64,000 nucleotides of DNA from Haladaptatus caseinilyticus (GTDB taxonomy: Archaea > Halobacteriota > Halobacteria > Halobacteriales > Haladaptataceae): NCBI RefSeq assembly GCF_026248685.1, contig NZ_CP111037.1, forward strand, positions 1 to 64,000, given 5' to 3'. The notes under the pieces are model-generated. The model saw nothing but the letters and a program-made list of their open reading frames with translations, had not been told where the DNA came from and did no database searches. A program made the position numbers and the translations under genes. Each line of letters starts with the position of its first letter. Within the stretch, counting starts at the first letter, position 1. Shown here piece by piece: positions 1-21,456 of this stretch.

Positions 1-73
1 TAAATCCGCAAAAGGGAACAATTGGTCGCAGTCTTTCGAATATCCATATAGATATCTGGATAGATTTACAGAC

Positions 74-94
74 AGATGGCTATCTAGATAGCTA
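74..94. promoter_or_regulatory. Palindromic motif upstream of parA (candidate centromere/operator)
   Basis: A perfect 14-bp palindrome, GCTATCTAGATAGC, lies at 79-92 and extends to 20 bp (76-95) with one mismatched pair. It sits about 70 bp before the likely parA start at 161. A related copy follows the partner gene at 1416-1436 and agrees at 17 of 21 positions. A weaker copy rich in GATATC and GGATAGAT lies at 43-65. Flanking placement around a ParA operon fits a parS-like site or an autoregulatory operator. The function is inferred. Confidence 0.5.
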
Positions 95-160
95 TTTGAA
101 TAGTTTGAGTCGATTGTCTGACGAGAATTTATGAGGGGGAAGCGTATAACGACTGACTGT

Positions 161-994
161 ATGAAACGGGCCATCACACTGTGGAGCGAATCCGGTGGGG
201 TCGGCAAGACGACCATGGCAACCAACGTGGCCGCCGCACTAGGACGGCGAGACGAACGAGTTCTCGTGGTCGATTTGGACCCCCAACTGGGGAGTTTGAC
301 TGATCACGTCGGCTATCAGGAACTAAAAACAGGAGACCGTGATCATCTTGGCCACGTTCTACTAGACGATAGCAAAGACGTTCGCTCGCTTATCGTCGAG
401 ACTGAAGATTTCGATCTCGTTCCATCTCATGAGGGGCTTGCGAACATCGAAAGCGAAATGGCCGCTCGGAACACCTCACTCCGAGAATTTCAGCTCCGTT
501 CCGCACTGAAATCCGTGGCAGGTGAGTACGACTACTTCATTATCGACCCACCGGCGACACTGAACGTCCTTGTGGACAATGCACTAGTCGCGGCGCGCAA
601 CGTCGTGATTCCGATCGAACTTACCCGAAAAGGGAGCATCTCGATCGAAGGATTGGAAGACACGCTGGACAGCATGGAACGAGGGTTCCGAAAGTTCGAC
701 GACAGCTTCAAACTCGGAATCCTCGCCGTCGTCCCGAACGAGGTGGGCGACTCGAACATTTACCGCGACACGCGCGACGAGTTGGAAGCGGATGGAAAGC
801 CAGTAACCCCGTTTGGCGTGCGAAAACGGGACGTGCTGAAAGAGGCCTGGAAACGGCAGATGAACGTGTTCGAATTCGCGGAGAGCGACGATACCCGGGA
901 CCTCCGTGAGTACGAACAGGACCTGCTTTCGAACTTCGAGCACCTCGCCCGAATCATCGAGCAAGGAACGGTCGACGTGGAGGTCAAAGCATGA
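161..994 (+). CDS. parA: ParA/Soj-like partition ATPase
   Basis: P-loop ATPase of the ParA/MinD superfamily, expected to segregate a replicon or position cargo on the nucleoid. The P-loop reads SESGGVGKTT at residues 9-18 from ATG 161. Walker B follows as DYFIIDPPATLN, and a core segment is NVVIPIELTRKGS. The upstream ATG at 131 adds ten residues without family similarity, so 161 is preferred. Most ParA proteins have a signature lysine in KGGxGKT; here the matching residue is Ser11. The gene overlaps the next one by ATGA (991-994), so the two are co-translated. An Orc1 origin lies 7-10 kb away, consistent with a replicon-maintenance role. Confidence 0.85.
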   Translation: MKRAITLWSESGGVGKTTMATNVAAALGRRDERVLVVDLDPQLGSLTDHVGYQELKTGDRDHLGHVLLDDSKDVRSLIVETEDFDLVPSHEGLANIESEMAARNTSLREFQLRSALKSVAGEYDYFIIDPPATLNVLVDNALVAARNVVIPIELTRKGSISIEGLEDTLDSMERGFRKFDDSFKLGILAVVPNEVGDSNIYRDTRDELEADGKPVTPFGVRKRDVLKEAWKRQMNVFEFAESDDTRDLREYEQDLLSNFEHLARIIEQGTVDVEVKA

Positions 995-1392
995 CCAAAG
1001 ACGACCGATACGGCGCGACCGACGACGACTACGGCGAGAATTACGACGATTATCCCGACGAAACGGAAACAACGAACGTGAACGAAACACAAACGAGCGA
1101 CGATCCCGTATCCACGAACCGTAATAGCGGATCGGGCGGTGGAGCCGAGGTACAGACACTCCCATTTATCTTCGCCAGACGAACGGTAAAAGCTGACCGC
1201 GAGGCAGTTCCGGTTTACGTGCAAAATGAAACGTCGGAGGAGATCGGCGAGCTCGAACGGGAGCTAAGCCAGACGTTCGACGGTGACAAAGTGATGGCCT
1301 TGGACGTACGTGAGGCCCTTATTCGCGCTGGATTGGAGAACTTGGACGACGTACAGCGAGTGATGGAAGAATGGGGTTACGGTAGGCGGTAG
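991..1392 (+). CDS. Small acidic ParA partner, hypothetical
   Basis: A 133-residue protein whose ATG overlaps the parA stop. The first 50 residues are very rich in Asp, Glu, Asn and Tyr and look disordered. The C-terminal half (about 55-133) looks like a small alpha/beta domain: FIFARRTVKADREAVPVYVQ, then helices ending in DDVQRVMEEWGYGRR. No HTH or ParB nuclease motif is visible. Position alone suggests the ParB-like adaptor or centromere-binding partner of ParA. That role is inference from operon order. Confidence 0.65.
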   Translation: MTKDDRYGATDDDYGENYDDYPDETETTNVNETQTSDDPVSTNRNSGSGGGAEVQTLPFIFARRTVKADREAVPVYVQNETSEEIGELERELSQTFDGDKVMALDVREALIRAGLENLDDVQRVMEEWGYGRR

Positions 1393-4268: not shown

Positions 4269-6302
4269 ATGGGGGACAGGGAAAAAAGCATCTGCCCGTT
4301 CTGTGGTGTCGGGTGTGGCGTCGTGCTGGACGATTCAGGAAAAGGCCGAGGATGGAAAGCCGCGGTAAATCGCCGCGGTGAACTCTGCCCGAAAGGGGTC
4401 GCGGCCTACGATGTTCTCGGACACGACGACCGACTGACCGAGCCACAGGTTCGAGACGGTGACGAGTTCGTCACCGTCTCGTGGGAAACGGCTTTTTCTC
4501 GTATCGAAAGGGAGTTCGATCGCATAGTAGACGAGCATGGGCCGGACGCGTTGGGTTTTTTCGCCTCGTCGAGCTGTACGAACGAGGAGAACTACGTCTT
4601 TCAGAAATTGGCTCGCGTGCTCGGGACGAACAACGTCGATAACTGTGCCCGACTCTGCCACTCCTCGACGGTTGCCGCGATGCAATCGCGATTCGGTGCA
4701 GGTGCGATGACGAACACGCTGAATGACCTCGTCGATGCGGACTGTTTTCTCGTCTGGGGCTCGAACCCCGCAGAACAACATCCGATTATTTTTAGTTCAT
4801 ATCTCGCACCGGCGGTAAATCGGGGGGCCACGATGGTTCACATCGACCCGCGCAAGAATCGAACGACTGAACTCGCGGAGTACCATCTCCCCGTCAAGCC
4901 GGGGTACGACATCCCACTGTTGAACTCGATTTGTGCCGTGATTTTCGAGGAAGGATTGGCAGACGAGGATTTTCTGTGGAAACGCGTGTCGGAGGTTGCT
5001 CAGTTTCGGACGTTTGTTTCTCACGTTGACGTCGATACATCCGCGAAACTCGCCGGAGTCGCCCCGGATGACGTCCGGGAAGTCGCACGAATCTACGCCA
5101 GTGCAGACCGGGCAGCAGCATTCACCGGAATGGGAATGAGCCAACACCGATATGGGACTGCCAACGTTCATGCGCTAATCAATCTCGTGCTCGTGACCGG
5201 TAACATTGGAAGACGCGGCACAGGTGTCAACCCGCTCCGCGGAAAAAACAACGTGCAAGGTGCAAGCGACGTAGGATGTCTGCCGGACGTGTTACCGGGG
5301 TATCGTCCCGTAACGGATACCGATGCACGAAGAGCACTCGCGGAACTGTGGGGCGTCGAACCGCCACCTAAGCCGGGGGTCACGGAAGTCGAAATGACCC
5401 ACGATTTCGGCGGCGAAATTCGCGGTGCGTTCGTTTTCGGGGAAAACATCGGGGCGACGGAGCCAAACGTTAGTCGTATTTCGGAAGAACTCGATTCGCT
5501 CGATTGCCTCGTCGTGCAAGATATCTTTCCAAACGATACGACCGCACAAGCGGACGTAATTCTACCAGCGAGTTCGTGGGCCGAAAAGAGCGGAACCGTC
5601 ACGAACACCGATCGACAGGTCCAGCGGATGCGTCAATCAAACGAACCGCCGGGAAACGCCCGCACCGACCTTGAAATCATCTGTGAGTTGGGTAATCGGT
5701 TGACCGACGAATCGTTCGATTATGACAGCCCGGAGGTGGTTTTTTCGGAGTTGGCGGAAGCGACACGACAGTATGCGGGGATGAGCTACGCGGGAATCGG
5801 TGAAGATAGCCAGCGATGGCCGTTTTCTGCTGAGGCAGAGGCGGGCACTGGCGTTCTGCATCGAGACCGGTTTTCTAATGGTAAACGACGTGCACCGCTG
5901 GTCCCGGTCGAACACGTCGAACCCGTGGATGAACGGGGGTCAGACGGCGATGAGACACCGGTATTGACGACCGGGCGCGTTATCGAGCATTTCAACAGCG
6001 GCGTCGTAACTCGTCGATCGGGCGTGCTGACGCATCTTCGGAGTACGGACGCCCTCCAAATCCATCCCGACGATGCGGCAGAAAGAGGAATTACGGATGG
6101 GGATCAGGTCGTCATTCTAAACGATATCGGGAGAGTAAGGGCAGTAGCAGCAGTTACACCTGCAATCCGACGAGGAGTCGCGTTTATCACGTTCCACTTC
6201 GCCGAACAGTTAGTCAACAGACTGACCGGTGATGAACTCGACCCGGAATCGAAAATACCGACCTACAAACACATCGAAGTTCGAGTGGAGAGAGAAAAAT
6301 AA
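4269..6302 (+). CDS. Formate dehydrogenase alpha-like molybdopterin oxidoreductase (Cys type)
   Basis: A 677-residue bis-MGD enzyme of the FdhF/NarB group. An N-terminal [4Fe-4S] site is formed by Cys9, Cys12, Cys16 and Cys40 (CPFCGVGC ... LCPKG). The Mo ligand position is Cys130-His131 in NNVDNCARLCHSST, where many formate dehydrogenases have selenocysteine. Further formate dehydrogenase-like segments are GMGMSQHRYGTANVHALINL and PLRGKNNVQGASDVG. The C-terminal molydop-binding domain runs from about 560. There is no ferredoxin-like N-terminal extension, no Tat signal and no adjacent beta subunit, so it is probably cytoplasmic with a distant electron acceptor. Assimilatory nitrate reductase is the main alternative. 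Confidence 0.8.
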   Translation: MGDREKSICPFCGVGCGVVLDDSGKGRGWKAAVNRRGELCPKGVAAYDVLGHDDRLTEPQVRDGDEFVTVSWETAFSRIEREFDRIVDEHGPDALGFFASSSCTNEENYVFQKLARVLGTNNVDNCARLCHSSTVAAMQSRFGAGAMTNTLNDLVDADCFLVWGSNPAEQHPIIFSSYLAPAVNRGATMVHIDPRKNRTTELAEYHLPVKPGYDIPLLNSICAVIFEEGLADEDFLWKRVSEVAQFRTFVSHVDVDTSAKLAGVAPDDVREVARIYASADRAAAFTGMGMSQHRYGTANVHALINLVLVTGNIGRRGTGVNPLRGKNNVQGASDVGCLPDVLPGYRPVTDTDARRALAELWGVEPPPKPGVTEVEMTHDFGGEIRGAFVFGENIGATEPNVSRISEELDSLDCLVVQDIFPNDTTAQADVILPASSWAEKSGTVTNTDRQVQRMRQSNEPPGNARTDLEIICELGNRLTDESFDYDSPEVVFSELAEATRQYAGMSYAGIGEDSQRWPFSAEAEAGTGVLHRDRFSNGKRRAPLVPVEHVEPVDERGSDGDETPVLTTGRVIEHFNSGVVTRRSGVLTHLRSTDALQIHPDDAAERGITDGDQVVILNDIGRVRAVAAVTPAIRRGVAFITFHFAEQLVNRLTGDELDPESKIPTYKHIEVRVEREK

Positions 6303-13395: not shown

Positions 13396-14454
13396 CTACC
13401 GAACGAGTTCGAGCGACACGGTTTCTGCCTCGAAGTCTTCGATGAATGACCCGGAACCACCAATACTTTTTTCGCCGTTTTCGGTATTGAGAACGAGTGC
13501 CGTTTCGACCGGAAATGCGTTCGATGCCGGTTCGATGAGGCCTTGTCGAATATCGACTATTTTGCCATCTACGGTTACTTGACCGTTTTCGCTGCCGACC
13601 GGGTGAGCACGTACACGTGCATGAACTGGGTGATTTGCCCGGAGGTGAAGCGTCGCCTGCAAGACCGCATGGCGGAAATCTTGGAAGGTTTGGGGTAGCT
13701 CCGTGGGAGCAGTCGTGTACACTTCGTTTGCCATCGGCCAATAGTTGCCGAGAAACGATCCCACGAGAACTGGCACGAGTTGCTCCTGTGCGAACGTTAT
13801 CGCCTGTTTGTCGCTATTCGAACGAAGGATCATCTCGGTCGGCGCGACGAGACCAAATCGCTGGTCAACGGTGAGCGTCGTCGGCATCGGCTCGCGCCAC
13901 GCACGTGCAGCGCTTGCAATGCCTTCGAATTCCGATTCGTCGATAGTGTCCTGGTGGACACCGCTGACGACTAGCAGGACGAGAACGCCGCGTTCCACCG
14001 CCGCTCCGAGTTCGTTTGCCACCTCGGGCAGATGCTCGTACGGGATCGAGAGTGTGATTTCCTCGCTCGCGTCCGCGAGGCGATTCTCGATTCGTTTGAT
14101 GACGGTAACGCGTGATTTGATCACTTCGAACTGATCGGGGTCGCTGGCAGTCGCCGAGTAGCGCTCGTCCAGCGCCGGTCGCATGGTTTCGACCCGATCC
14201 GCGAGCGTCCCGATGACCTGTTCGGGCGGATTCGCGCGAATCATCGTCGGAACGACGTGATCGTTGACCTCTACAAACCCGCGTTCGGCCAGTTTTTCGC
14301 TAGTGCTGTAGACGTAGCGTTTCGAGACACCGGCGTCGTCAGCGACGGTACTTGCTTTCGCTTCGCCCTGGTCTAAAATCGCGAGGTACGTATCGACTTC
14401 CTTCTCCGAAAGACCGAACTGCCGGAGCAGGTCGGAAAGCGTACGGTCGTCCAT
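13396..14454 (-). CDS. TrmB-family sugar-sensing transcriptional regulator
   Basis: A 352-residue TrmB protein. The N-terminal winged helix (about 1-75) contains LSEKEVDTYLAILDQGEAKAST and a recognition helix near SKRYVYSTSEKLAERG. A central PLD-like/TrmB middle region and a C-terminal beta-rich sugar-binding domain follow (about 270-350). TrmB regulators repress or activate maltose/glucose uptake and central carbon genes. It sits directly beside amylase, glucoamylase and sugar ABC genes, so maltodextrin is the likely effector. A TACT-N-GAGTA half-site, known from Halobacterium TrmB, was not found in the divergent 16584-16678 interval. Confidence 0.88.
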   Translation of the reverse strand: MDDRTLSDLLRQFGLSEKEVDTYLAILDQGEAKASTVADDAGVSKRYVYSTSEKLAERGFVEVNDHVVPTMIRANPPEQVIGTLADRVETMRPALDERYSATASDPDQFEVIKSRVTVIKRIENRLADASEEITLSIPYEHLPEVANELGAAVERGVLVLLVVSGVHQDTIDESEFEGIASAARAWREPMPTTLTVDQRFGLVAPTEMILRSNSDKQAITFAQEQLVPVLVGSFLGNYWPMANEVYTTAPTELPQTFQDFRHAVLQATLHLRANHPVHARVRAHPVGSENGQVTVDGKIVDIRQGLIEPASNAFPVETALVLNTENGEKSIGGSGSFIEDFEAETVSLELVR

Positions 14455-14489: not shown

Positions 14490-16574
14490 TCACTCGGTGA
14501 CGCGGGCGACGACGACGTTTTCGACGATAACTTCCGATCCGTTGTCGGACATAGTCGGAATCGTCTCGCCCGTCACGAGGTCGATGTCACCGATTTCCAC
14601 ACCGAGCGTCACTTCCCGTGCCGATTCGCCGAAATTGAGGACGACGGCTACGCAATCGTCTCCCGACTTGCGCGAGAAGGCGACGATCCCTGAGCCGTCG
14701 CGTTCGTTCTCGCTATCTTCGGTATCGATACGTTCCCCGGTTGCATCATTACTCTCCCACTCTATTCTTTCGACTGACCCGTCACGGAGGACAGAAAAAT
14801 CATTACGTGCCCTGCTCAGTGCGCGGTGGAACTCGGTCAACTCGTCGTCGCCGTGCTCCCAGCGCATCGTCCCACGATACTTGGTCATACCGCGCTCTTG
14901 TCCGTAGTAAATCATCGGCGCACCGGGGAGCGTGAACGTCGCGGCAGTTGCGGCTTTCAACGCTTCATTGCCGCATTCGTCCAGATAGCGCGATTCGTCG
15001 TGATTTTCGACGTACCGAAGGTGAACTGCACTATCGGGGAATCCGGCGCGCTCCCCGTCCGACAGCGCGTCGAAGATGGCCGTTGCGGGGGTTTCGCGGT
15101 GTCCGATATCACGGAGGGTTCCGTAGAGCGTCGTGTCGTAGTGCATCGTGAACTCCCCTTCGTGGTACGCCGGGTCGCGCGGAATCGTTTCGTCGAGCAA
15201 GAGGAAATCGTCCGGAACTCGCTCCGCGACTTCCTTCCAGAACTCGTGGGGGACACCCCACGCCACGTCGCATCGGAACCCATCGACCATTCCGGCCCAT
15301 TCATCGACCACGTCGAGAAGAAACGTCCGTACTGCGAGGGAATCGAAGTTGAAGTTCGGAATCCGCTCCCAATTGAAATAGCGTTGCGCTGACTGGGTCC
15401 CGGTTTCTTCGTCCGTTTCCCAGACGTACCAGTCCCGATACTCGATGACGCCGGTTGCACTCATCTGAAACGCGGGATGGTCGCGCGAGGAATGATTAAT
15501 GACGAGGTCGAAGATAACCCGAATATCTGCCTCGTGGCAGGCCGAGACGAATGATTCGAACTCCTCGCGCGTCCCAAGATCGCTTGCGGTTTCGAAGTAG
15601 TTCGTGGTGTGATAGCCGTGGTCGGTCGGACTCGCTAATATCGGCGTTAGCCAGACGCAGTCCACGTTCAACGATTCGAGGTATGGTATCCGACGCTCCA
15701 GTTCGGCAAAGGTGGTATCGACCGTCTCGCCCGCGAACAACCGGACGAAAATCTCGTAGATGGTAGGTGATTCGGCCCACTTCGGTGGGTCATTCAGCCT
15801 CTGCACCTCGCGCTTGCCCTGCCTCCCGATTTCCACGCAGTCGGCGAACGCCACAGCGTCGCCGACTGCGACTGCATGGATTCGAACCCACTCGCCGATC
15901 TCCTTGCGGGGAATTCGGAGTCTCCGCTGGTCGCTGACGACGTCGACTTCGCCTCCGTCGCCGGTCTCCACGTAAATTTCCACGTCGAGTGAATCGTCCG
16001 AAAAATCGCTGTTCGGCGCCGACTTCGGTTCGGCCGAAACCACGATTTCGTCTCCCTGAATCCTCCCGTCGAGATGAATTCTGGGACGACCCGGTCCCGG
16101 AATCGAAAGCGTCCCCTGTACTTGCTCCGTGAGGTCGTCGTTCATCAGGAATCCGTATGGATGCTCTCCCGGTGGAAGTTCGGTCTTAAAAACGTAGGCT
16201 CCATTCTCCCGTTTTGGACGATTTCTACCCACGAGATGTTCGTTGAATGGCCCGGTAATGCAGATGGAATCCAGTTCCTCCTCCGGAATAGGGAGGTCGT
16301 CGACTGGCAGTTCGAAACGCGCGGTCCAACGCTCGTCGGGAAAGGCACGCACGAGGCGACGCTGTTTCTCGTCGGCTCCCGATACCAGAAGACGGTAGAG
16401 TCCGGGATGGTCGGGTTCGAAGTGGATAACTGCGGAATCACTGATCGTCGCCGAACTCCACTTTGGACGGGATTCCAGTGTCCACTCGTACTCTTCGGTT
16501 GGGTCCGGTTCACGCGGTGCAAGTTCGACAGCTTCGCCGACGGTCGTGAACCGTGGTGGCCCGGATTTGTACAT
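14490..16574 (-). CDS. GH13 alpha-amylase-family enzyme (cyclomaltodextrinase-like)
   Basis: About 694 residues; the ATG at 16574 has GAGGTG eight bases upstream, and a GTG at 16583 is possible. Counting from 16583, two N-terminal beta-sandwich regions (about 30-90 and 100-170) precede the barrel. The four GH13 regions are present: DLVINHSS (359-366), GFRCDVAW with nucleophile Asp439, LLLDETI with acid/base Glu465, and VENHDE with Asp529. There is no export signal, so it probably acts in the cytoplasm on imported maltodextrins. It is divergent from glucoamylase over about 95 bp, suggesting shared control. Confidence 0.9.
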   Translation of the reverse strand: MYKSGPPRFTTVGEAVELAPREPDPTEEYEWTLESRPKWSSATISDSAVIHFEPDHPGLYRLLVSGADEKQRRLVRAFPDERWTARFELPVDDLPIPEEELDSICITGPFNEHLVGRNRPKRENGAYVFKTELPPGEHPYGFLMNDDLTEQVQGTLSIPGPGRPRIHLDGRIQGDEIVVSAEPKSAPNSDFSDDSLDVEIYVETGDGGEVDVVSDQRRLRIPRKEIGEWVRIHAVAVGDAVAFADCVEIGRQGKREVQRLNDPPKWAESPTIYEIFVRLFAGETVDTTFAELERRIPYLESLNVDCVWLTPILASPTDHGYHTTNYFETASDLGTREEFESFVSACHEADIRVIFDLVINHSSRDHPAFQMSATGVIEYRDWYVWETDEETGTQSAQRYFNWERIPNFNFDSLAVRTFLLDVVDEWAGMVDGFRCDVAWGVPHEFWKEVAERVPDDFLLLDETIPRDPAYHEGEFTMHYDTTLYGTLRDIGHRETPATAIFDALSDGERAGFPDSAVHLRYVENHDESRYLDECGNEALKAATAATFTLPGAPMIYYGQERGMTKYRGTMRWEHGDDELTEFHRALSRARNDFSVLRDGSVERIEWESNDATGERIDTEDSENERDGSGIVAFSRKSGDDCVAVVLNFGESAREVTLGVEIGDIDLVTGETIPTMSDNGSEVIVENVVVARVTE

Positions 16575-16583
16575 ATTCGACAC

Positions 16584-16678: not shown

Positions 16679-18697
16679 ATGACACTCCGCGACACACTTT
16701 CCGACTTCAAGCGCCATCGCGGGAGCGAGGTACGCTTCCCCGGTGAGCGCCGAACACCCGCGGGCCGCTTTTCCGGCCTCGACGCCCGACTCGTTCACGT
16801 GGCTCCGGACGGGTCGCTCAGCGATTACTCCTATCCACTCTCCGGTCAGTACGGAATCGACCGCTCCCGATTCGGAATTCGACGCGCTGACAGGACGACG
16901 TGGTTCGACGATGGATCCATCGACTCGACACAGAGATACGACGGTGACGGTGCCCTCGTCCTCACCGATCACGAGGCCGAAGAGTGGTCGGTAACCCAGT
17001 ACGACTTGACCCTGGAGGACGCCCATATCACGCATTTCGCCGCCTCCGACGGTATCCCCGGCGAACTCGTCGCCTACCTCGGATTCGCACCCGACGGACG
17101 GGACGACCGTATCGGACAACTACGACATGGCGACGCGATCGAGGTGTTCCACGCCGACGAACACGATTACTTCTCTGTCCGCCCCGAACCAAAAGAGGTT
17201 CACGGGCAGGTTCCGGCCGACTTCGCTACCCTCGTCTCCGACCGAGCACGACAGGTCCCACAGACCGACGACGCCGGCCGATACGAGGAGAGCAGACTCA
17301 GCGGTGAAATCGTCGCTTCCGTCGAGAGCGACGGAAACATCACTCTCGTCACCCTTCTCGCGGACCACGACGAAACACAGCGTGAGGACGCCCTCGACCG
17401 AGTTCGAGCGCTCGTCGAAACGTACGACTCGCCGGAGAAAATACGAACTACTGCCTCGAAACAGACCGCGATACGTCCCGACACGCCCGTGCCCGAGGCC
17501 GTCAGCGCCGACCTGCGGGTCCTGTCGCTTCTCTCCGCGAACACGGGTGCGCGAATCGCCGGTCCGGATTTCGACCCGTTTTACGCATACTCAGGGGGAT
17601 ACGGCTACACGTGGTTCCGTGACGACGCGGAAATTTCGCGCTTTCTGCTCGCTTCCGACGATCACTTCGACCTCTCGCTCGCGGACTGGCACGCCCGAAG
17701 CGCCCGATTTTACTGCGACACCCAACATGCAGATGGAACGTGGCCTCACCGCGTTTGGCCGCGTGATGGCACCATCGCACCGGGCTGGGCCAACGCCCGA
17801 GTTGAAGCGGGCGAGGGCGCGGACTACCAAGCCGATCAGACGGGAAGCGTCATCGCGTTTCTCGCGAGCTATCTCCGCGATGGGGGCCTCGATTCCGAAC
17901 TCGAATCCACGGTTCGGGAGACGCTTCGATCCGCACTCGATGGGTTGGACGACACCCTCGAATCGGACGGCCTGCCGGTTCATTGCCAGAACGCTTGGGA
18001 GAACATGACCGGCCGGTTTGCCCACACCGCCGCAACGTATCTCGAAGCCTACGCAACGCTCGCCAGCGCGCCGATCGAGACGGAACTTCAAAATCGCGCG
18101 GAATCGCAGGCAGCAGCAGTCCTCTCCGGACTCGACACCCTCTGGACGGGCGAGTTTTATGCCCTTCGCTTGGACGAGGATGGTGAACTCGACGCCCGCC
18201 TCGATTCGAGTGCCCTCGCGCTTGCCGGTGCACATCGCGTCTACGCACAGGTGGAGGATCTTGACTCGAAGCAAATTGACCGCCTCGTCTCGCACACCGA
18301 GTCGATTCTCGACGGTCTCTGGCGGAACCCGAGCGAAAGCGACGTTCGTGGTCTCGCCCGGTTCGACGAGGACGACTGGCGCAAACGCGAGCAGAGCGAA
18401 CCGAAAATCTGGACGGTTTCGACCGCGTGGGGCGCACACGCTGCCGGGGAACTCTCGCACTTACTGTCCGACCGCAATGATGCTCGTGCCGAGGAGTTCG
18501 CACGACGTGCGCGCGAACTCCTCTCGCTCTTCCTCCCTGATGGGCCGCTTTGTGCCGATACAGGGTATTTGCCGGAACAGTTCTTCGACGTGGGTGCTGC
18601 GGATAGCGCGACACCGCTCGGATGGCCACACGCCATTCGTCTGGCGACGGTGGCGTCGCTGGACGAACAGGATGTGATGACGACCGAAGAAATGTAA
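16679..18697 (+). CDS. GH15 glucan 1,4-alpha-glucosidase (glucoamylase)
   Basis: A 672-residue GH15 enzyme releasing glucose from alpha-glucan ends. The N-terminal beta-sandwich (about 1-250) starts DSLSDYSYPLS-like, as in archaeal glucoamylases. The (alpha/alpha)6 barrel follows, with GGYGYTWFRDDAEISR near residue 308, HRVWPRDGT, and YQADQTGSVIAFL near 382 carrying candidate catalytic acids. There is no signal peptide, so it should act inside the cell. It pairs with the GH13 enzyme to break imported or stored glucans down to glucose. It ends about 20 bp from the convergent malK stop. Confidence 0.9.
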   Translation: MTLRDTLSDFKRHRGSEVRFPGERRTPAGRFSGLDARLVHVAPDGSLSDYSYPLSGQYGIDRSRFGIRRADRTTWFDDGSIDSTQRYDGDGALVLTDHEAEEWSVTQYDLTLEDAHITHFAASDGIPGELVAYLGFAPDGRDDRIGQLRHGDAIEVFHADEHDYFSVRPEPKEVHGQVPADFATLVSDRARQVPQTDDAGRYEESRLSGEIVASVESDGNITLVTLLADHDETQREDALDRVRALVETYDSPEKIRTTASKQTAIRPDTPVPEAVSADLRVLSLLSANTGARIAGPDFDPFYAYSGGYGYTWFRDDAEISRFLLASDDHFDLSLADWHARSARFYCDTQHADGTWPHRVWPRDGTIAPGWANARVEAGEGADYQADQTGSVIAFLASYLRDGGLDSELESTVRETLRSALDGLDDTLESDGLPVHCQNAWENMTGRFAHTAATYLEAYATLASAPIETELQNRAESQAAAVLSGLDTLWTGEFYALRLDEDGELDARLDSSALALAGAHRVYAQVEDLDSKQIDRLVSHTESILDGLWRNPSESDVRGLARFDEDDWRKREQSEPKIWTVSTAWGAHAAGELSHLLSDRNDARAEEFARRARELLSLFLPDGPLCADTGYLPEQFFDVGAADSATPLGWPHAIRLATVASLDEQDVMTTEEM

Positions 18698-18717: not shown

Positions 18718-19770
18718 TCACACCGGCGCTGTCGCGGTCTCCTTCTCGCTGATCGCGTTTCCAGTCTCGCCGTCGAAGACGTGAACGTCGTCTTCTGCGA
18801 ACGTCACCCGAATCCTCTCCCCGGGTGCAGGTTCGACGTCGGAATCGACGCGAGCGATGAAATCGTCCGCGACGTCGAGATAGAGGTAGTTATCGCTTCC
18901 GATGGGTTCGACGACTTCGACGGTCGTTTCGAGGATGGGTTGCTTGTCGCCCGTCGCCGGGAACACGTTTTCCGGGCGAATGCCGACCGTAAAATCGTCG
19001 TTCGTACCATCGATTCGCTCCGCAAAGGACGAGGAGAGGCGACACGAGAAGTCGCCGTTCGGGTCGGCGAGAACGACGTCGCCAGCGTCGCTCGTTGCCC
19101 GAACGTCGATGAAGTTCATACTCGGTGACCCGACGAACCCGCCGACGAAGCTGTTCGCGGGGATATCGTAAACCGCGGTCGGTGCGCCCATCTGCTGGAG
19201 TTCGCCGTCGCGGAGGATGACGATTCGGTCACCCATCGTCATCGCTTCCTCTTGGTCGTGCGTTACGTACACCGCCGTGATACCGAGTTCCTGTTGAATG
19301 CGCTGGATTTCGGTGCGCATCGTCGTTCGGAGTTTTGCGTCGAGATTGGATAGCGGTTCGTCGAACAGGAAGATATCCGGTTCGCGGACGACCGCACGCC
19401 CGAGGGCGACGCGCTGTTTCTGACCACCGGAGAGTTCGTCGGGTTTGTCCGAAAGCAGGTCCTCGATACCCATCATCTCGGCGGCGTCGTAGACTCGCTC
19501 GTAGCGTTCGTCCTTCGAAAGGTCGGTACTCATCCGCAGTCCGAACGACATGTTCTCCTCGACGGTCTTGTGTGGATACAGTGCGTAGTTCTGGAACACC
19601 ATCGCCACGTCGCGGTTTTTCGCGTGAACGTCGGTTACTTCGTCGTGGCCGATGTGGATTCCGCCGGACGTAGCGCGTTCCAGTCCGGCGATCATCCTGA
19701 GAGTCGTCGTCTTCCCGCAGCCCGACGGACCGACGAGCGTGACGCTAAAAATTGGATTGAGCATCGCCAT
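18718..19770 (-). CDS. MalK/UgpC-type sugar ABC transporter ATPase, 5'-truncated
   Basis: The ATPase has Walker A GPSGCGKTT at about residue 14, Q-loop VFQNYALYPH, signature DELSGGQKQRV, Walker B FLFDEPLSNLDA, H-loop YVTHDQEEAMT and the C-terminal TOBE/regulatory region (FTVGIRPENVFPA). Normal members have about 35-40 residues before Walker A, including the A-loop aromatic residue; here only about 13 remain. The first six codons (MAMLNP) are antisense of permease sequence. Homology stops at about 19750, exactly where the plus-strand permease begins, so the gene has lost its true start. Function is doubtful unless the assembly is wrong. Confidence 0.85.
   Translation of the reverse strand: MAMLNPIFSVTLVGPSGCGKTTTLRMIAGLERATSGGIHIGHDEVTDVHAKNRDVAMVFQNYALYPHKTVEENMSFGLRMSTDLSKDERYERVYDAAEMMGIEDLLSDKPDELSGGQKQRVALGRAVVREPDIFLFDEPLSNLDAKLRTTMRTEIQRIQQELGITAVYVTHDQEEAMTMGDRIVILRDGELQQMGAPTAVYDIPANSFVGGFVGSPSMNFIDVRATSDAGDVVLADPNGDFSCRLSSSFAERIDGTNDDFTVGIRPENVFPATGDKQPILETTVEVVEPIGSDNYLYLDVADDFIARVDSDVEPAPGERIRVTFAEDDVHVFDGETGNAISEKETATAPV
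19745..19756. other. Head-to-head breakpoint between malK and malF
   Basis: Left of about 19750 the minus strand reads as the ATPase (FSVTLVGPSG). Right of it the plus strand reads at once as permease (IGLSIAIALVLTSE). No promoter or intergenic DNA separates the two coding regions. This is the signature of a deletion joining the middles of two divergent genes, or of an assembly collapse. Confidence 0.8.
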
Positions 19771-20389
19771 CGCGCTCGTCCTGACCAGCGAACACGTGGT
19801 CGGTCGGCGCTACATGCGCTCGTTCATCATCATCCCGATGGGGCTGCCGTCCATCTTCACGATTTCGGTCTGGCGCGGCATCTTCAGCAACGCCCAGTAT
19901 GGACTAGCGAACAAGCTACTCAAAAGCATCAGCCTCCAGCCGGTGTTTTGGTTGGACGAGCGATGGACCGCCTTCTTCGCCTACAACGTCACGGAGGCGT
20001 GGCTGGCGTACCCGTTCATGGTTATCATCATCGTGAGCGCGCTGCAGGACGTTCCGAAGGAGCTTCACGACGCGGCGATGGTCGACGGCGCGGGATTCTT
20101 CAGTCGGTTCCTCCACGTCACCCTCCCGTCCATCAAGCGTCCCGTCCTCTTCGCGTCCATCCTGACCTCTGCGGCGTCGTTTCAACAGTTCCTCATCCCG
20201 TATGTGATGAACAAAGGTGGGCCCCTCCGACAGAACGAACTGCTCATCGTGTACGGCTATCGTGAGGCGTTCCGCTTCGACGAGTACGGAATGGGTGCGG
20301 CCATCATGACGGTGACGCTCGTCGTCATCAGCGGCTTCATGCTCCTGAACGTGAAGCGCGGCCGCCTCGCCGAAGGGGTGGACGAATGA
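19751..20389 (+). pseudogene. MalF-type sugar ABC permease, N-terminus missing
   Basis: The recognisable permease begins at about IGLSIAIALVLTSE and continues to the stop for about 212 codons. MalF-like subunits are usually near 300 residues, so one or two N-terminal membrane segments and the true start are lost. The ABC-binding EAA loop is intact as VPKELHDAAMVDGAGFFSRF. The frame stays open upstream only because it reads antisense through the ATPase gene. It overlaps malG by ATGA (20386-20389), showing the ancestral operon order malF-malG. Confidence 0.82.
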
Positions 20390-21456
20390 GCGCCGACGGA
20401 ATTTCGGGAAGACTTATCGCGGACGCTCGATACGTCCTCGGGGCTCCTGCTCGCGCGTTCGAGCAGGTACGGTACACTATCGTTGGCCTGAAAACCGGCG
20501 ACGTTCCGCCGCGTCGAGTCGCCGCAAAAGTCCTCGCCACGTCCTTTGCGTTGTTGATGATCGGGGCACTCTTGTTCCCGATTTACTGGATTTTCCTCGC
20601 GTCACTGTCCGGAAGTGGCGGGTCGCTGTATTCGTCGAACGACTTTCGACTCTGGCCGCAACATCCGTCCGTCGACGCCTATAGGTGGGTACTCGGTGGG
20701 ATGGAAATTTCAAGCCTCGAAATCGGAATCAGCCTTCTCGGCTACGAAATCGCGTTGAACACGCCGGGTGTCTCGACGACCGTCGATTGCGCGAAATATG
20801 GCGGCTGTTCGGACTTCCCGCTGTTCCTCTGGAACAGTCTCACCGTCGCGATTCCGACGGTCATCCTGACGATGTGTGTCGTCGTCCCGGCGGCCTACGC
20901 TCTTTCGCGTCGGAAATTCCTCTTCCGGTCGAAAATCCTGTACGGCTACGTCCTGTTCACGCAGGTCGGTGGCGGCCTCGGCGTCGCCGCGCTTATCGCG
21001 CTGTACGCCACGTTCGTCCAAGTTGGACTAGATAACAACAAACTCGCACTCTCGGCGTACTACGCGGCGACTGCCGTGCCGTTCAATACGTGGTTGCTGA
21101 AGACGTACATGGACAACATCCCGACCTCCTACGAGGAGGCAGCGATGATCGATGGCGCGTCCTCGTGGCGCATCGTCTGGGAAGTCATCCTCCCTCTATC
21201 AAAGGCTGGACTGGCGACGGTGCTGGTGTTTAGCTTCCTCGCCGGTTGGACGGAGTTCATCGTCGCGCAACTGCTACTCAATGCGGACAAATACACCCTT
21301 CCGGTGGGACTGTATAGCCTCGTCGGTAAATATTCGACCCCATGGGCGCGCTTCTCGGAGTTCGCGCTGACCTTCGCGACGCCCCTCATGTTGGTGTATC
21401 TGTTCGTTCAACGGTACATCGAGAGCGGTCTCTCGTTCGGCGGAATGGAAGGGTAA
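20386..21456 (+). CDS. MalG-type sugar ABC transporter permease
   Basis: A 356-residue inner permease subunit that looks intact. Membrane segments lie near 50-75, 150-175 (LTVAIPTVILTMCVVVPAAYALS), 185-215 and in the C-terminal third. The EAA motif is YEEAAMIDGASSWRIVWEVILP near residue 245. An insertion of about 60 residues with two Cys (VDCAKYGGCSDF) lies between TM1 and TM2, as in MalG-like proteins. It is translationally coupled to the truncated malF. Without a complete MalF, MalK and binding protein the transporter should not work. Confidence 0.9.
   Translation: MSADGISGRLIADARYVLGAPARAFEQVRYTIVGLKTGDVPPRRVAAKVLATSFALLMIGALLFPIYWIFLASLSGSGGSLYSSNDFRLWPQHPSVDAYRWVLGGMEISSLEIGISLLGYEIALNTPGVSTTVDCAKYGGCSDFPLFLWNSLTVAIPTVILTMCVVVPAAYALSRRKFLFRSKILYGYVLFTQVGGGLGVAALIALYATFVQVGLDNNKLALSAYYAATAVPFNTWLLKTYMDNIPTSYEEAAMIDGASSWRIVWEVILPLSKAGLATVLVFSFLAGWTEFIVAQLLLNADKYTLPVGLYSLVGKYSTPWARFSEFALTFATPLMLVYLFVQRYIESGLSFGGMEG

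Follow-up and report, generated by a model that had tools for sequence, protein, structure and literature searches.

Evidence for a recent deletion between short direct repeats in a maltodextrin/maltose-type ABC importer locus of Haladaptatus

The window (the whole stretch of 64,000 nucleotides analysed here) corresponds to bases 1–64000 of the 394,338-bp contig C2 and contains, next to genes for glucan-degrading enzymes, two genes of a sugar ABC transporter which abut on opposite strands and both lack their beginnings. The locus raises the question of how such a half-gene pair arose, and whether the transporter it belongs to could still import sugar. A comparison with eight genomes of the genus Haladaptatus (G001–G008), five of which (G001, G003, G004, G005 and G006, loci L029–L033, e.g. 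H. litoreus) served as the intact-locus reference, points to a recent loss-of-function deletion of about 1.9 kb between short direct repeats in a maltodextrin/maltose-type ABC importer, a reading to which a probability of about 0.9 is given.

Remnant genes and the ancestral arrangement

The features of the locus are listed in Table 1. The malK-like open reading frame (18718–19770, minus strand; 350 residues) opens at a chance ATG at 19770, and its homology to MalK/UgpC-type ATPases begins only at residue 10 (VTLVGPSGCGKTT), just before Walker A. Codons 1–33 of the ancestral gene, encoding the first strand and the A-loop region, are gone, while the remainder from Walker A on is intact, including the OB/TOBE domains and the stop codon. 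Matches to ABC_tran, OB_MalK and TOBE_2 identify the product as a MalK-type ATPase with a C-terminal OB/TOBE regulatory domain, and the top NCBIfam models are UgpC and MalK, both below their curated cut-offs. The malF open frame begins at 19652 with an ATG that is there by chance and lies antisense to malK, and encodes 245 residues, against which the MalF of the relatives (330 residues) could be aligned only from residue 113; residues 1–112 are missing, and with them membrane segment 1 and a portion of segment 2, while the BPD_transp_1 core and the stop codon are preserved. The second permease gene, malG, is complete and has lost the promoter of its operon. Both a MalF-type and a MalG-type permease are therefore encoded, the former truncated; both contain BPD_transp_1, and their best NCBIfam matches are MalF and MalG, respectively, below cut-off. 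The frames and stops of all three genes are kept, with no internal stop or frameshift. These alignments bear out the first-pass annotation in placing the loss of ATPase homology just before Walker A and the beginning of the permease at a mid-protein position on the other strand, while its description of malK and malF as fused head to head holds for the abutment of the two genes and not for their products, as no fused protein is formed.

Table 1. Features of the mal locus in the window
Feature	Coordinates	Strand	Basis
TrmB-type sugar-sensing regulator, retained	13396..14454	-	profile matches
Alpha-amylase MalA-like enzyme, retained	14490..16583	-	profile matches; no evident signal peptide
Glucoamylase-type GH15 enzyme, retained	16679..18697	+	profile matches; no evident signal peptide
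malK remnant, sugar ABC transporter ATPase	18718..19744	-	profile matches, comparison with relatives
Deletion junction	19733..19744		ACGAGCGTGACG, 12-nt word common to the malK-side and malF-side ancestral sequences
malF remnant, permease	19733..20389	+	profile matches, comparison with relatives
malG, second permease, complete	20386..21456	+	start overlaps malF stop, same in relatives

The five intact congeners share the order glucoamylase, malK (opposite direction), divergent promoter region, malE, malF and malG, and malE was found in all of them. Their gene order and flanks (trmB, malA, glucoamylase, malK, malF, malG) are as in the window, which is collinear with them on both sides of the join at about 74–86% DNA identity; what it lacks by comparison is the beginning of malK and of malF, the promoter region between the divergent malK and malE, and malE itself. 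All of these parts had been reported missing in the first-pass annotation, and each is present in the five intact loci. The missing DNA amounts to 1,913 bp in comparison with G006 and G003, and to 1,927–1,946 bp in comparison with the other three. Relative to G006, 98 nt of malK (codons 1–33), the intergenic region, the entire malE (417 residues) and the malF sequence for residues 1–112 have been lost. The lost malK–malE intergenic promoter region measures about 190 bp, with a mean column identity of 86% over the five species.

No MalE solute-binding protein is encoded beside the permeases in the window or in the assembly. The genome search for an unplaced malE with 5' malK and malF ends, which had been proposed earlier, retrieved none in the assembly: the genome has 15 other SBP_bac_1 genes, the nearest of which is only 23% identical to MalE; no malF start was found elsewhere in the genome; and the missing DNA is absent from the rest of the 7-contig assembly, where off-locus DNA matches are short and confined to that end of the query which carries ATPase sequence. 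In plasmid records, which may not include those of this genome, matches were partial only, the best among the matches listed showing 72–79% identity and belonging to other haloarchaea. An inversion or transposition with breakpoints in malK and malF, by which the 5' halves and malE would have been relocated, is hardly conceivable on these data. An inversion can also yield head-to-head half genes in principle, though no result points there; against it, malK and malF are already divergent in the relatives, which makes an inversion unnecessary and by which it was ruled out, both flanks are collinear, and the missing parts occur nowhere in the assembly.

Two further observations concern the intact loci. 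A ATATTTCATA-like word occurs twice in the conserved malK–malE intergenic region of the relatives (L029 13376–13385 and 13485–13494) and is possibly a candidate regulatory element; the mal region of the window has no such word. As the loose Halobacterium TrmB motif (TACT-N-GAGTA) had no site near the mal genes of the window, nor any in the relatives' counterpart of the lost intergenic DNA, no operator is claimed. In G001, a frameshift affects the C-terminal third of malK (L033 ~5560–5700), where the sequence reads QMGARRRTCTNNP instead of QMGAPTTVYENP; it may be either real or a sequencing error.

The junction and the proposed mechanism

The malK and malF homologies meet at 19733–19744, within the interval 19700–19800 to which the first-pass annotation had assigned the join, and overlap by 12 nt with no inserted sequence or added bases. 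The 12-nt word, ACGAGCGTGACG, has a single exact copy in the window, at the junction. The malF-side border in G006 and G003 is exactly ACGAGCGTGACG, while the malK-side border is ACGAGGGTGACG in these two genomes, ACGAGCGTGACG in G001, and ACGAG[C/G]GTGACG in close relatives. One repeat of 12 nt is thus retained in the window, and the two borders agree at 11 of 12 positions in G006 and G003. Since the malK-side border differs at one of 12 positions in the closest relatives, the ancestral repeats may have been imperfect (11/12), and the borders probably matched at 11 or 12 of 12 positions when the deletion happened. Within the G006 locus, random breakpoints showed exact homology of at least 12 nt only rarely, with a frequency of 1.5e-5.

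A deletion between direct repeats, one early in malK and the other at malF codons 113–117, would have removed the intervening ~1.9 kb and left a single repeat copy. It may have arisen through repair of a double-strand break at short homologies, by annealing or microhomology-mediated end joining, or else through slippage from one repeat to the other during replication. Deletions produced by microhomology-mediated end joining are known in Haloferax volcanii, a species without Ku (PMC7776575, PMC7521656). The Haloferax deletions resemble the present one in being short-repeat deletions with one copy kept; they differ in having been induced in the laboratory, whereas the deletion in the window is known from its scar alone (PMC7776575, PMC7521656).

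The first-pass annotation had left the choice between a deletion and a collapse of the assembly, and of these the deletion is favoured by the 12-nt microhomology, by the absence of the missing DNA from the 7-contig assembly and by an independent deletion in G007 (see below). In the case of an artefact, the DNA of the cell would be intact, and the assembler would have skipped ~1.9 kb or made a false join at the 12-nt repeat. The remnant genes appear fully constrained, as expected for an intact locus, and a 1.9-kb piece left out of the assembly might have been removed as too short a contig. Assemblers need shared words longer than 12 nt, so that a collapse at such a repeat would be unusual; the repeat lies below the usual assembly words and overlaps. 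Moreover, the 4.82-Mb assembly (7 contigs, completeness 99.99) holds no fragment of the missing malE, the window sequence is free of any N, and G007 shows a comparable yet different deletion. An assembly artefact is accordingly considered improbable, and a genuine deletion is preferred.

Age of the deletion and function of the importer

The dN/dS values of malK, malF and malG of the window against the five relatives are 0.07–0.16, similar to those between the relatives. The occurrence of zero stops in 910 codons sets the neutral divergence since the loss below ~0.034–0.042 substitutions per site (5% level), a bound which presumes neutrality after the loss and which an assembly artefact would yield identically; the dS to the nearest relatives is ~0.55–0.73. 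With the remnant frames still open and dN/dS as in working copies, the deletion is judged to be recent relative to the species split. The numbers of amino-acid changes unique to the window lineage (8, 7 and 14 in malK, malF and malG, compared with 5, 1 and 5 for G006) might suggest relaxed selection, which is not claimed, as control genes lean likewise (23:17, 29:21 and 9:6).

Import through the mal system of the window should be abolished, given that there is no binding protein, that the native promoters are gone and that both joined genes are decapitated, the ATPase being predicted to be without its first 33 residues and the permease without its first third. It is very improbable that the remnants yield a working or repurposed product, with the shortened MalK acting as a shared ATPase, or MalF/MalG operating with another binding protein. 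Such a product would draw on the open frames, which begin at chance ATGs upstream and span 350 and 245 residues, on the preserved Walker A and permease core, and on the 15 SBP_bac_1 genes that the genome has at other loci. On the other side, neither native promoter is left, MalF has lost one membrane segment at its N-terminus entirely and the next in part, the A-loop region of MalK is missing, and a recent deletion predicts open frames anyway. The deletion accounts for the puzzling half-gene pair, and annotators should not assign maltodextrin import by the mal system to this genome.

The maltodextrin/maltose specificity of the system is inferred from the neighbouring genes for MalA, glucoamylase and TrmB. 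The Thermococcales possess ABC importer clusters for trehalose/maltose and maltodextrin under the control of TrmB, which likewise combine a binding protein, two permeases, a MalK-type ATPase and a TrmB-family regulator in one region (PMC4158304). Their gene order is malE-malF-malG-treT-trmB-malK (PMC4158304), while malK is divergent in Haladaptatus and the binding-protein gene is deleted in the window.

The amylase, the glucoamylase and TrmB had been noted earlier as having stayed, and all three are indeed intact. No obvious signal peptide was seen on MalA and the GH15 enzyme when inspected by eye, so that both could still act on internal glucans, or on sugars imported by other routes.

The start of contig C2 just precedes a ParA-like gene (window 1–1000), and similar AGATATC-containing words are located at both ends of the contig (window 1–1000; L036). 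C2 therefore resembles a replicon opened near its origin, and is compatible with an opened circular replicon without this being proof.

Parallel loss in the genus

The deletion in the window is in itself an ordinary gene loss, and its most interesting part is the parallel loss in congeners. In G007, trmB survives together with a C-terminal portion of MalA and the final 157 residues of MalG; the ~7.5 kb between them is lost, and the MalA portion is joined onto the malG end at ~L034 9699–9711. The 12-nt word GCCGCGCTCATC is found at both borders in the intact G006, 7,518 bp apart, and in one copy at the G007 join. As the breakpoints in G007 and in the window differ, the importer was lost independently in each. 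One archaeal genus thus contains two well-delimited natural deletions, both at 12-nt repeats and both consistent with the repair at short homologies that laboratory work has shown in Haloferax. In G002 and G008, no close relatives of malE, malG and malA were found.

It is a tentative and rather doubtful idea that importer loss is favoured in Haladaptatus through repeated short-repeat deletions (in the window, in G007 and perhaps in the G002 and G008 lineages), while the cytoplasmic enzymes acting on glucans, or the regulator, are retained to turn over internal glucans; two deletion events do not show selection.

The remnant region of G007 is present twice, in L034 (G007:C1:1828001-1847500) and L035 (G007:C1:2380001-2399500), and the two copies are 100% identical over at least 19,349 bp and lie ~552 kb apart on one contig; either a large segment was duplicated recently in the genome, or the assembly duplicated it.
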